Part shown: one piece after another, positions 20,973 through 34,154 of the stretch | Layout: every line of letters begins with the position of its first letter | Numbering within the stretch: the first letter of the stretch is position 1 | DNA from: a virus | DNA: 36,049 nt | Strand: one strand, 5' to 3' | IMG/VR virus record: IMGVR_UViG_3300013132_002191 | Location: 1 to 36,049 of that record | Position numbers and translations under genes: made by a program | The notes under the pieces: generated by a model | Database searches by the model: none | Seen by the model: the letters and a program-made list of their open reading frames with translations, nothing else | Told to the model about the DNA's origin: nothing

Positions 20973-23114
20973 ATGTCAATCAAAAATATATCGAATCAAA
21001 AATCTGTGCTGGCAAAATTATTGGCACAAGAGAATCTCACCGTAGAACATAAAAAAGTTCCTACAGCATACTTTGATCCCAAAAATAGAGTCCTATGTCT
21101 TCCAATATGGAAAGACATGAGTTCCGACGTCTATGACTTATTAGTGGGGCATGAAGTCGGGCATGCTTGGGAAACACCGGCCGAAGGTTGGCACACTGCT
21201 ATTGAAGCTAAGGGCAAAGGGTTCAAGTCCTTTTTGAATGTTGTGGAAGATGCTCGTATAGAGAAATTAATAAAATCAAGATATCCAGGTATCAAGGCCC
21301 CAATGTATCGTGGATACAAAGAACTATTCGATCAAGACTTTTTCGGTGTCAGAGAAAAAGATATTTCAACCATTAGTTTGATAGATCGCTTAAATGTGCA
21401 CTTTAAACTTGGTTCATTGATGAATGTGCCATTTAAAGATATAGAACAAATTTTCGTAACTAGGATGGATAATCTTAAATCCTGGGATGACGTATATGCT
21501 CTAGCATCTGATTTGTATGATTATGAGAAAGCAAATCCATCCACAAATCTAGACGATCTCGAAGAAGGCGAAATGGGATTAGATGGAGATTTCGATGGAG
21601 ATTTCGATGATCTTGATGATGACGATGAAGGTACTGTCTATGGTAATAAAGGTGGCAAAGATTACGAACCTGAATCTGCAACAGATGTTGCTTTCAGAGA
21701 AAAAGAGTTAACACTTTTAACCAATGATTTTCATCCATATGTGTATGTCAATCTTAATACTGTAGATTTGAAAAAGATCATAGTTGATTACAAGACATTG
21801 TATGAGAAAACAGACTTCTCAAAGATGAATAACTATGCTGATCATTTAAAGGCTATCTTTGGATCAGACATTAGTAACGAAAAGTATGATGAAGAAAAAG
21901 ACATCTTCAATCCTACTATTCTAATGAATGACTACAAAGGTCGCAATTCAAAATTTATTGCGTATTTAGTTAAGGAGTTTGAATTACGTCGTAATGCTGC
22001 ACAATATGCAAGAGCAAGTGTATCTAAAACAGGCGAATTGGACACTGAAAAGGTATGGTCGTATAAACTTAAAGATGATCTGTTTAAACGTGTTACTAAA
22101 ATTCCTTTGGGCAAAAATCATGCTATGATTATGTTCATAGATTGGTCTGGTTCTATGAGTAACAACTTAACCAATACTATTGAACAATTTTTGATCTTAG
22201 CAGATTTTTGCAGGAAAGTAAACATTCCGTTTGAAGTTTATGCTTTTTCTGATAATGGTTTTAATTTTATGAATCGTGAAAGAGAATTAAGGAATACTGC
22301 ATTTTCTCGTAAACCAAAAGAATTATTAATTGATAATAGTCATTTTAAATTGCTTAACTTTTTGTCGTCGACTATGAGCAATTCCCAATATCGAAATGCT
22401 CAGATTAAATTGTTGCAAATTGCAAAATGTTTTGATGATGGTGATAAGTATCCTACGAGTTATTCTAGATATCGTTCAAATTTTTTACCTGCAGCAGTAA
22501 ATCTTAGTGGCACACCTCTGAATGAAGCAATTTTAGCAGCAAATTATATTGTATCTGAATATAAGAAAGTAAACAAGATTGATGTAATGAACACAATCTT
22601 TTTAACTGATGGTGATGGTGCAGACATTAATTGCATAGTAGATTCTGATAGATTATCACCAAGGTCTATTAAAGCAACCGCTGGTTCTACTTTATACAAT
22701 CTTGTTCTAACTGATAAGGCAACTAATTTATCAGTGGTTGCGAAACCTGGAGAATTAGTTACCAGTGCTCTTTTACGTATGCTTAAGGTAAAATCTGATT
22801 CAAGTATTGTAGGTTATTTTATTACCACTAGAAGTATCAAAAACACAGCTTTAAATTTAGCAGCTGCCTATGGTAGTTCAATCACTGCTGAGAAAGTACA
22901 AGAAGAAATTAGAAAAACTAAATTCTACAGTGTGAAGGATATTGGTTTTGATGAGTATTTTGTTGTTCAAACTAAAGATTTGGAAGTTCAAGAAGATAAA
23001 TTACAAGTAGAAAGTCCAAGTAAACGAGATTTCTATAAAGCATTTATGAAAAATCAAAAAGCTAAAATTATCAATCGTGTTCTTTTGAACAAATTTATTC
23101 AACAAATTGCTTGA
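20973..23114 (+). CDS. CobT-like VWA-domain protein with HExxH metallopeptidase-like motif
   Basis: The 713-residue product starts with a metallopeptidase-like region: LLVGHEVGHAWETP gives His60-Glu61-x2-His64. A helical region follows, with a strongly acidic linker around residues 196-224 (DGDFDGDFDDLDDDDEG). The C-terminal half is a von Willebrand A domain with MIDAS motif Asp390-Trp-Ser-Gly-Ser (DWSGSMS) and later TDGDGADI. It pairs with the CobS-like AAA+ ATPase next door, as CobT does in the cobaltochelatase. Such pairs are common in marine T4-like phages, mostly without CobN. A general AAA+/VWA chaperone or protease role is as likely as cobalt insertion. Confidence 0.8.
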   Translation: MSIKNISNQKSVLAKLLAQENLTVEHKKVPTAYFDPKNRVLCLPIWKDMSSDVYDLLVGHEVGHAWETPAEGWHTAIEAKGKGFKSFLNVVEDARIEKLIKSRYPGIKAPMYRGYKELFDQDFFGVREKDISTISLIDRLNVHFKLGSLMNVPFKDIEQIFVTRMDNLKSWDDVYALASDLYDYEKANPSTNLDDLEEGEMGLDGDFDGDFDDLDDDDEGTVYGNKGGKDYEPESATDVAFREKELTLLTNDFHPYVYVNLNTVDLKKIIVDYKTLYEKTDFSKMNNYADHLKAIFGSDISNEKYDEEKDIFNPTILMNDYKGRNSKFIAYLVKEFELRRNAAQYARASVSKTGELDTEKVWSYKLKDDLFKRVTKIPLGKNHAMIMFIDWSGSMSNNLTNTIEQFLILADFCRKVNIPFEVYAFSDNGFNFMNRERELRNTAFSRKPKELLIDNSHFKLLNFLSSTMSNSQYRNAQIKLLQIAKCFDDGDKYPTSYSRYRSNFLPAAVNLSGTPLNEAILAANYIVSEYKKVNKIDVMNTIFLTDGDGADINCIVDSDRLSPRSIKATAGSTLYNLVLTDKATNLSVVAKPGELVTSALLRMLKVKSDSSIVGYFITTRSIKNTALNLAAAYGSSITAEKVQEEIRKTKFYSVKDIGFDEYFVVQTKDLEVQEDKLQVESPSKRDFYKAFMKNQKAKIINRVLLNKFIQQIA

Positions 23115-32340: not shown

Positions 32341-32831
32341 AACCTAAGTCTTATAAACCTACAAGAAATGTGTCCCACGTAGTCGAGGATAATAGATTAT
32401 TCGGTGAACCGTCAGTATCATATGTCGAAGAACCTTTTAATGCGCCAAAAATTTCACCTTTTGATTTCATTAACTCTATTCATTACACAAAGGAAAATTT
32501 AATTGTAGATGATTGGTCCGAGAAACAGTATAATCCATATATTGTAAATAAAGGATTATCTTATGGAGTAGATACAGTCATACCAGCTAATGAGATGAAT
32601 AGCAGACCACATTTACCAAAAGCTCTTCAGTTTTCGTTCTTAATAAATATCATAAGGCCTAAAAAAAGATTCAATAAATGGATCAAGGCCGAAAAAATTG
32701 ATGCGCTAGAAGTAATAAAGGAATACTATGGATATAGCACAGAAAAGGCCCGCCAAGTACTTCCCCTTCTAGACGAATCCAAAATAGATTATTTAAGAAC
32801 AAAACTATATAAAGGTGGAAGAGATGTCTGA
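32337..32831 (+). CDS. 62: Clamp loader small subunit gp62
   Basis: SPFDFINSIHYTKENLIVDD, YNPYIVNKGLSYGVDTVI, ANEMN and IRPKKRFNKWIKAEK are gp62 features, and the position between gp44 and regA is that of T4 gene 62. 164 residues against 187 in T4. It completes the 4:1 loader with gp44. Confidence 0.92.
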   Translation: MKPKSYKPTRNVSHVVEDNRLFGEPSVSYVEEPFNAPKISPFDFINSIHYTKENLIVDDWSEKQYNPYIVNKGLSYGVDTVIPANEMNSRPHLPKALQFSFLINIIRPKKRFNKWIKAEKIDALEVIKEYYGYSTEKARQVLPLLDESKIDYLRTKLYKGGRDV

Positions 32832-33252
32832 CGAATTCTTCAAAATTGATTTTCCGGGTTATATGCCCTTGGAAATCAATCTTTTACAACCTGACGATTT
32901 TTTAAAGGTCAGGGAAACCTTAACTAGAATTGGCGTGGCTTCTAGAAAAGATAAAGTGCTTTATCAATCTTGCCATATACTACACAAACAAGGTAGATAT
33001 TTCATTGTACATTTTAAAGAACTCTTTGCCTTGGATGGAAAACAAGCAGACCTTACTGATAATGATCTGCAACGTAGAAATACTATTGCTAAACTTCTTG
33101 TCGATTGGGGATTAGTTAAGATCGTTGATTCGAATAAATTTTTAGATATGGCTCCTTTATCTCAAATTAAAGTCATTGCTTTTAAAGAAAAGGATGACTG
33201 GGATTTACAAACGAAGTATAATATTGGTAAGAAAAAGCAGTCTGCAATATAA
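32824..33252 (+). CDS. regA: RegA translational repressor
   Basis: RegA binds the ribosome sites of early phage mRNAs. TLTRIGVASRKDKVLYQSCHI, then RYFIVHFKELFALDGK, and LQRRNTIAKLLVDWGL are the RegA core. The gene starts at ATG 32824, inside gene 62. In T4 the DNA polymerase gene 43 follows; here the late hsp20 unit follows instead. The TAA stop is inside a late promoter. Confidence 0.94.
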   Translation: MSDEFFKIDFPGYMPLEINLLQPDDFLKVRETLTRIGVASRKDKVLYQSCHILHKQGRYFIVHFKELFALDGKQADLTDNDLQRRNTIAKLLVDWGLVKIVDSNKFLDMAPLSQIKVIAFKEKDDWDLQTKYNIGKKKQSAI

Positions 33253-33255
33253 ATA
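33248..33255 (+). promoter_or_regulatory. T4-type late promoter of the hsp20 unit
   Basis: TATAAATA is a perfect late -10 element. It overlaps the regA stop and leaves a leader of about 105 bases before hsp20. Confidence 0.75.
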
Positions 33256-33275
33256 ATTATATACCTGGGATGGGA

Positions 33276-33366
33276 ACTAGCATGCCAGCGAAGGCTAGTA
33301 AAATATCCACTGGTGCCATCGCCATTTGGGTTGGCAATTTTAATCTCGCTTACGAGGAGAACTATT
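33276..33366 (+). promoter_or_regulatory. Structured hsp20 leader with ROSE-like RNA thermometer hairpin
   Basis: Three hairpins can be drawn. ACTAGC (33276-33281) pairs with GCTAGT (33294-33299). TGCCA (33314-33318) pairs with TGGCA (33332-33336). Next to the start, TCTCGCT (33344-33350) pairs with AGGAGA (33355-33360) around the loop TACG, leaving one G (33348) bulged. The last one covers the Shine-Dalgarno AGGAG. The element UCGCU facing AGGA with a bulged G is the conserved core of ROSE thermometers, which control small heat shock genes in alpha- and gammaproteobacteria. A 4-bp alternative stem (CTCG/CGAG) is also possible. The 114-base gap holds no other supported gene. Confidence 0.6.
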
Positions 33367-33873
33367 ATGACACTATTACTAAAAAACGGACCTTTTGATA
33401 TGTTTAAAGATTTTGACAAATTATTTGTAGGGTTTGATGATACCTACAATCGCATGTTGAAATTCCATGACGATGTGACCAAAAATGTTCCTAACTATCC
33501 TCCATATAACATTCGTAAGGTAGAAGATAACAAGTATGTTATTGAACTAGCTGTTGCTGGTTTTAGCCGTAACGATGTTGAAATTACTTTTGAGGACAAT
33601 AAACTAATTATCTCTGGTCGTACTTCTGATGATAATGACAATTTTCTTTTTAAGGGAATTGCCAACAGAGCTTTTACTCGTACTTTCTTCTTAGATGACA
33701 CTATTGAGATTAATGATGCATCTATGATTAATGGTATGTTAAAAATTGCTTTGGAAAAAATTATTCCTGAGCACAAAAAACCAAAAAAAATTGAAGTTAA
33801 GGAAACAGAATCTAAAACATCTAAAAGAACTTTGTTAACGGAGAAAAACAAACAAGATGACACTAACCTTTAA
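33367..33873 (+). CDS. hsp20: Small heat shock protein Hsp20 (IbpA-like)
   Basis: This is an ATP-independent holdase, common in marine T4-like phages and possibly used in head or scaffold assembly. The alpha-crystallin domain runs from PPYNIRKVEDNKYVIELAVAGF through KLIISGRT to NGMLKIALEKIIPE, where the C-terminal GxLxI-type motif reads GMLKIAL. The start at ATG 33367 follows GAGGAG; the open frame farther upstream has no good start. A lysine-rich tail is added. Confidence 0.94.
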   Translation: MTLLLKNGPFDMFKDFDKLFVGFDDTYNRMLKFHDDVTKNVPNYPPYNIRKVEDNKYVIELAVAGFSRNDVEITFEDNKLIISGRTSDDNDNFLFKGIANRAFTRTFFLDDTIEINDASMINGMLKIALEKIIPEHKKPKKIEVKETESKTSKRTLLTEKNKQDDTNL

Positions 33874-34021
33874 TATTCAGCAAATACTTGCGCGGATTCG
33901 TTATTGGTTAGGTAAAACGTTTGCGATGCCCAACTATGCTGAATTATATCTCTCTAAAAGCATAGACCGTGCAGACTTCGATTACAGAGAAAAATGCCTA
34001 AAGAACAAGGGACTATTATGA
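33857..34021 (+). CDS. Small DUF3563-like protein
   Basis: The 54-residue product begins MTLTFNIQQILARIRYWLG, and NYAELYLSKSIDRADFDYREK resembles the short proteobacterial family with the pattern YL..s.D.aD.e.R. It starts 17 bases before the hsp20 stop and its own stop overlaps the next start (ATGA). Function unknown. Confidence 0.6.
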   Translation: MTLTFNIQQILARIRYWLGKTFAMPNYAELYLSKSIDRADFDYREKCLKNKGLL

Positions 34022-34122
34022 AAATCCTAAAAAAGATTTGGCATGTTTTAGAAAGCATCGGTGAAGGAAGACGTATGCGAGTTAATAAACAAGTACAAGA
34101 ATACGTCAAAAATCGTACATAA
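34018..34122 (+). CDS. Very small basic protein
   Basis: The 34 residues (MKILKKIWHVLESIGEGRR and a further basic helix) form an amphipathic, positively charged helix. It is coupled to the gene before it by ATGA and is followed after 4 bases by a terminator, so it is the last gene of the hsp20 unit. Support is by context only. Confidence 0.5.
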   Translation: MKILKKIWHVLESIGEGRRMRVNKQVQEYVKNRT

Positions 34123-34126
34123 TAAA

Positions 34127-34154
34127 AGGGGCACAAAAGTGCCCCTATACTTTT
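34127..34154 (+). terminator. Rho-independent terminator of the hsp20 unit
   Basis: AGGGGCAC (34127-34134), loop AAAA, GTGCCCCT (34139-34146), then ATACTTTT. An 8-bp perfect stem. Confidence 0.9.

Follow-up and report, generated by a model that had tools for sequence, protein, structure and literature searches.

The leader of the hsp20 gene in a 36,049-base stretch of viral DNA (the window) carries two hairpins, P3 and P4, which, judged from their sequence, act on a late phage gene as a short RNA thermometer of the ROSE type, with a probability of about 0.8. The preliminary description had reported a single ROSE-like hairpin over the Shine-Dalgarno (SD) sequence; the element observed is larger, since it consists of two hairpins and not of P4 alone. 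The ROSE-like reading is supported by the UYGCU/SD core, by the position at hsp20, by a second hairpin whose bulged G is conserved, by reciprocal matches with ROSE elements and by deep conservation. Because a thermometer-type RNA on hsp20 was kept by almost every related phage examined, these viruses probably switch the chaperone on under heat stress of the host.

Anatomy of the hsp20 leader

The window is a fragment of a T4-type virus with the gene order clamp-loader genes, regA, hsp20. The following features were located in the region:

32815-33252, + strand: regA, translational repressor and upstream neighbour of hsp20 (PF01818, E 4e-48)
33248-33255, + strand: T4-type late promoter, TATAAATA, an exact match to the T4 late consensus, overlapping the regA stop and beginning the leader
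33276-33299, + strand: stem S1 of an H-type pseudoknot, ACUAGC (33276-33281) with GCUAGU (33294-33299), with compensatory changes across relatives
33285-33313, + strand: pseudoknot stem S2, CCAG (33285-33288) with CUGG (33310-33313), with an A-rich loop (33300-33309) between
33315-33335, + strand: hairpin P3, GCCAUC-(G33321)-CC-AUUU-GG-GUUGGC, with a conserved bulged G and, in the window, one U-U mismatch
33344-33360, + strand: hairpin P4, the ROSE core UCUC-(G33348)-CU / UACG / AGGAGA, predicted to sequester the hsp20 SD
33355-33359, + strand: SD of hsp20, AGGAG, 7 nt ahead of the ATG at 33367
33367-33873, + strand: hsp20, a class A small heat-shock protein of 168 aa (PF00011, E 1.4e-17; phrog_432, E 7e-41)
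34127-34146, + strand: probable intrinsic terminator closing the hsp20 transcript, an 8-pair stem followed by a T-rich tail

The leader measured about 105 nt from the late promoter to the ATG, as first described, and comparison of loci placed a late promoter at the equivalent position in the relatives. Between hsp20 and the terminator lie two small ORFs (33857-34018 and 34020-34121), the first of which overlaps the hsp20 end and had no Pfam family.

Hairpin P4, the 3' half of the element, was re-inspected and has exactly the six pairs first drawn (U33344-A33360, C33345-G33359, U33346-A33358, C33347-G33357, C33349-G33356 and U33350-A33355), with G33348 bulged and a UACG loop. Within it UCGCU (33346-33350) pairs imperfectly with AGGA (33355-33358), and the Y position of UYGCU is C or U among relatives. 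Four uridines pairing with the SD, the fourU signature, were not found in the window, where the anti-SD is UCUCGCU. The G of UYGCU was unpaired opposite the SD in all 73 non-redundant leaders inspected; these had been selected with a looser pattern, [CT]T[CT]GC[TG], that itself demands the G, so the independent evidence for the bulged G comes from the survey of 110 loci and from visual reading of the leaders of 13 named phages (see below). Among the 73 leaders the anti-SD positions varied only between C and U, one top pair was lost and the loop ranged from 3 to 9 nt; the top pair is broken in leader L108. In 45 distinct leaders fetched through regA, eight cells of the anti-SD side had changed from C to U with G-U pairing kept. 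Overall the P4 anti-SD always reads YUYGC(U), and nearly every change in it preserves the pairing. The P4 core barely covaries, because its SD side is fixed by the ribosome. A compensatory change in the outer pair, C-G to G-C, was seen in phage S-CAM4 (L345, about 256-273), which has GUCgCU with AGGAC and not CUCgCU with AGGAG.

The main caveat on the exact P4 structure first drawn is a competing register in the model folds: a register-shifted, bulge-free hairpin of the window, CUCG-CUUA-CGAG, in which G33348 can pair, was calculated from nearest-neighbour energies to be ~1.2 kcal/mol more stable than the ROSE register. It was also favoured in other leaders with UUACGAGG; most relatives lack that alternative. 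In the nearest-neighbour model the stability of P4 is marginal and resembles that of the E. coli ibpA and ibpB hairpins: typical phage P4 hairpins came to -0.6 to -3.3 kcal/mol at 37 C (-0.3 to -4.1 for E. coli), with predicted melting near 43-64 C (39-67 C for E. coli). Variants of the UUGCU type came out unstable, the energy model being unable to score non-canonical pairs. Removal of the bulged G raised the model melting temperature to about 80 C, which would lock the hairpin. Melting curves computed with ViennaRNA showed a shallow temperature dependence for the phage leader and likewise for the proven E. coli ibpA leader, and such curves fail to discriminate even proven thermometers.

The stem sequence of P3 is nearly free (GCUAC/GUAGC, CUCUAUC/GAUAGAG, GUGUC/GACAC, AGCACGUU/GACGUGCU and many more), and its layout is nearly constant: one bulged G, then C or CC, four loop bases, and G or GG. 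A simple search found this layout in 102 of 121 non-redundant leaders, and in 87 of the 121 when hairpins with any bulge or none were allowed to compete. The preliminary description held that a lack of covariation in related phages would speak against the element. In the 45 leaders fetched through regA, 99.4% of the P3 cells were paired and covariation was strong, with 80 double-changed cells against 19.4 +/- 3.3 after shuffling; the covariation score was 0.448, against 0.136 when shuffled and at most 0.072 when slid. The alignment behind these values was fitted to the model, and the raw stem lists serve as a check. At the level of comparative evidence, this massive covariation proves P3 to be a real hairpin.

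Of the two further hairpins first placed upstream of P4, P3 was confirmed, and the other corresponded not to a plain hairpin but to a conserved, covarying H-type pseudoknot (33276-33315). This was seen in the clade of the window (the window, L002-L028, L060 and L070). Both stems occur in compensatory versions: ACUAGC/GCUAGU, AAUAGC/GCUAUU, ACUAGG/CCUAGU and AACUGG/CCAGUU for S1, and CCAGUGAA/UUCACUGG, CCGAGGAA/UUCCUCGG, UGGCA/UGCCA and GGUGGU/ACCACC for S2. The loop connecting them is A-rich in this clade. Taking the S2 strands from the inspected list, own strands were complementary in 10/10 cases and swapped strands in 11/90. MAFFT alignments of all leaders and of the pseudoknot misaligned the variable loops and were therefore left out of the counts. 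In the window and two large relatives the pseudoknot was present in single copy, in the hsp20 leader, with one more chance-level match in the second relative. It may protect the 5' end of the mRNA, assist correct folding of the thermometer or provide an extra signal. With the pseudoknot, P3 and P4, the full leader fits the range of ROSE elements, i.e., two to four hairpins in 60 to over 100 nt.

Conservation among phages and restriction to hsp20

The hsp20 loci were gathered by similarity of the Hsp20 and RegA proteins and not by motif. Of 110 distinct loci, 101 had the core in its strict form, CTYGCT followed after 2-14 bases by the SD; it stood directly at hsp20 in 68 of them and at the gene that opens the hsp20 operon in 33. 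Of the remaining nine, three were truncated contigs, two were artefacts of the script and four had variant cores (CUCGCG, UUCGCU twice and UUUGCU); by sequence, all scorable loci among the 110 fit the element. Comparison across relatives excluded a chance origin.

A covariance model of P3 and P4, named R1, was built from 22 leaders. It scored 56.9 bits (E 1e-13) on the window, which is one of its 22 source sequences. R1 found one strong copy each in nine out of ten independent phage records (109-162 kb), always at hsp20, and the next best match had E 0.09 or worse; the tenth record, S-T4 (181 kb), was missed by the pre-filter, and its leader matched in a direct search (E 8e-4). All 13 named phages were positive, 12 of them at E 0.003 or better: Syn19, Syn9, S-ShM2, P-SSM4, P-HM1, S-CAM4, ACG-2014f, DSL-LC02, HTVC115P, Mosig, Melnitz-3, C48C1 and phi30-2. 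HTVC115P and Mosig are pelagiphages, and phi30-2 is a Pseudomonas jumbo phage of Arenbergviridae. A thermometer had been called unusual for a phage; within this group an element of this type is the rule. A scan of IMG/VR with the core alone gave, among the matches listed, many chance matches in GC-rich coding DNA; those listed with a P3-like hairpin upstream had Hsp20 or its operon next. In the phage genomes scanned the element is single-copy and exclusive to hsp20 or the hsp20 operon.

In many relatives (L029, L033, L039, L041, L085 and others) the hsp20 operon opens with a small gene of 65-98 aa, and it is this gene that carries the ROSE leader; the one such gene tested had no Pfam match. 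In other loci a rubredoxin gene stands ahead of hsp20 in one operon, each gene with its own UYGCU-SD core (L037 at 2282 and 2452, L113 at 2260 and 2432, and L232), an arrangement that recalls E. coli ibpAB. Note that in P-HM1 (L343, GU071101.1, position 244) the GTG start of hsp20 (PHM1_148) given in GenBank falls inside P3; translation very probably begins at the ATG that follows AGGAG, in which case the deposited protein is too long.

Kinship with bacterial ROSE elements

On the E. coli ibpAB region R1 matched the ibpB leader (CUUACUCGCUU...AGGAGAAAUGACUAUG, E 5e-4) and, more weakly, the ibpA leader (UUCUCGCUGA...AGGAG, E 0.12), both of them textbook ROSE elements. A hairpin of the P3 type with a bulged G, GGACGC-G-CC-UGAU-GG-GUGUUC, occurs farther upstream in the E. 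coli ibpA leader (L296), and a hairpin of this kind may be common to ROSE elements in general.

Searching with the Rfam ROSE models, a check proposed in the preliminary description, gave a divided answer. ROSE_3 aligned over its full length to leaders of relatives, including the bulged G of the first hairpin, with scores of 20-35 bits where the cut-off is 43; in 7 of 24 records it matched the leader with E 0.002 or better, the remaining matches having E 0.06 or worse. Rfam scans of the window at the gathering cut-off and at E 10 yielded no ROSE match, and RF00435 and RF01832 had no match at its hsp20 leader. One match of ROSE_2 on the minus strand (21062-21128, 18.4 bits) was far under its cut-off and was taken as chance.

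Bacterial counterparts were sought in two samples, of 274 and 289 genomes, drawn from two classes of proteobacteria (those of a Methylococcaceae MAG and of an Alphaproteobacteria MAG). Six matches of R1 with the full layout, all at E 1.2e-4 or better, were found in genomes of 1.2-1.4 Mb at the start of bacterial hsp20 genes (HMM E 3e-48 or better): L312, L313, L315, L316 and L317 in alphaproteobacteria and L304 in a gammaproteobacterium. These leaders, which Rfam misses, share the bulged-G P3 and CUUGCU..AGGAG. A seventh match (L314) lies ahead of a more distant Hsp20-like gene. A protein scan of genome contigs gave only four distant MAG matches, none of which matched R1. In the Hsp20 tree phage and bacterial sequences interleave, and that of pelagiphage Mosig stands beside a bacterial sequence (95/88); in published trees the cyanophage small heat-shock proteins group with bacterial class A, apart from cyanobacterial ones (PMC3827213). 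The homologous leaders on hsp20 of small alpha- and gammaproteobacterial genomes, together with the interleaved tree, make a proteobacterial-type origin of gene plus leader plausible, as had been proposed for a proteobacterial host source. The acquisition of the leader would be old and widespread, and not a recent oddity of this phage.

Proposed function, alternatives and known systems

In the proposed thermometer the phage sigma factor would transcribe the hsp20 mRNA late in infection, a timing read from the promoter. At normal temperature P4 would hold AGGAG and little chaperone would be made. Once the host is warmed, P4, weakened by its bulged G, would melt while P3 stays folded, presumably as a support, and the 30S subunit could then bind and Hsp20 be made. 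The chaperone would protect proteins, perhaps those of the virion, during assembly.

The serious alternative, to which we give appreciable weight while holding it less probable than the thermometer, is that Hsp20 oligomers bind P3 and P4 and keep translation repressed until they are titrated by misfolded proteins, so that the leader would sense aggregation and not temperature directly. In E. coli, IbpA acts as a repressor of its own ROSE leader: no other residue can replace R93, basic residues are required in the places of R97 and K98, and an aromatic one in that of Y34 (PMC10474464). The equivalents of R93 and R97 were Arg in all 63 phage Hsp20 sequences, the tyrosine of YPPYN, corresponding to aromatic residue 34, was present in the displayed alignment rows, and IbpB, which does not repress itself, has Q and L at the two Arg positions. 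Among the phage rows displayed, the non-basic T, S or E takes the place of K98, which is needed in E. coli, and the conserved Arg residues may serve dimerisation. That P3 and its bulged G are so strongly conserved points to more than a role in stability and would fit a protein-binding role equally well. Self-repression and the thermometer are not mutually exclusive, and binding of phage Hsp20 to the leader, relieved by misfolded protein as for E. coli IbpA, would be a likely second layer.

Three other explanations fared much worse. The hairpins could be those of a generic T4-type late leader, i.e., ordinary mRNA stabilisers or translation enhancers, as the late promoter upstream and the common protection of mRNAs by 5' hairpins would allow; this is very unlikely and was rejected because the element is single-copy and hsp20-specific, and moreover UYGCU was missing ahead of other AGGAG-led genes, with a single loose exception in the largest of the scanned genomes, and bacterial hsp20 genes bear the identical core. 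Slightly less likely still is a site through which the neighbouring RegA would repress by binding the hsp20 initiation region: in the window, as in many relatives, hsp20 follows directly on regA, but the element is kept without an adjacent regA in Melnitz-3, Mosig, HTVC115P, the Pseudomonas jumbo phage and Syn19, and also occurs on bacterial hsp20 genes. Least credible of all, practically negligible, is a coding leader. A frame of 42 codons (MGTSMPAKASK...) that starts at an ATG near 33270 and overlaps hsp20 is open in the window, but relatives show frameshifts and stops there with the RNA stems kept, and this small ORF was rejected on that comparison.

Returning to the thermometer reading, a broader and more speculative version, which we consider rather doubtful, would make the ROSE hairpins a virus-wide leader with several inputs, responding to heat and to free Hsp20, to which the pseudoknot of one clade would bring either a further input or a role in stability; such a leader would long have been carried by T4-type phages of marine and fresh waters and by at least one Pseudomonas jumbo phage. 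If true, the phage would adjust chaperone synthesis to the protein-folding stress that arises while virions assemble. The gene hsp20 belongs to the cyanophage core genes (PMC3037559); in Kyanoviridae and beyond it keeps a ROSE-type element, and the Hsp20 proteins themselves are deeply diverged. If the proposed function is true, some of the most abundant viruses of the sea sense temperature, or proteotoxic stress, while infecting, and cultured phages (Syn9, S-ShM2, P-SSM4 and Pseudomonas phages of the PA5oct type) are candidates for testing this. ROSE elements are also extended to small-genome proteobacteria. In the open-access literature, which our search covered, we found no description of a ROSE element in phages or of a thermometer on phage hsp20.

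The closest known systems are the proven short ROSE-like thermometers of Pseudomonas ibpA, in which deletion of a single G strongly reduces induction (PMC3669281). They share with the phage leaders two hairpins, the first of them stable, a U(U/C)GCU-SD pairing around a G in the second, and a class A small heat-shock gene (PMC3669281). They differ in having a sigma-32 promoter and a host gene, where a T4 late promoter and a phage gene are found here, and in the sequence of the first hairpin; the clade of the window also adds the pseudoknot. ROSE_3 (RF02523) resembles the phage leaders in its bulged-G hairpin AUGCC...GGGU and in ACUCGCU..AGGAG, and differs in that its cut-off leaves them, and the window above all, unrecognised. 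The E. coli ibpA and ibpB leaders have the identical core CUCGCU..AGGAG, whereas their P4 has a longer upper stem and the upstream part of ibpA is longer and more complex. Phage-leader RNA thermometers are represented by lambda cIII, an alternative-fold switch, and SPbeta blyA, a fourU element on a lysis gene (PMC10586365); the temperature-controlled translation proposed for the present leader is like theirs, but neither is a ROSE element or on a chaperone gene. The cyanobacterial hsp17 thermometer likewise acts on a small heat-shock gene, and does so in the host type of many of these phages (PMC4477652, PMC4166951).
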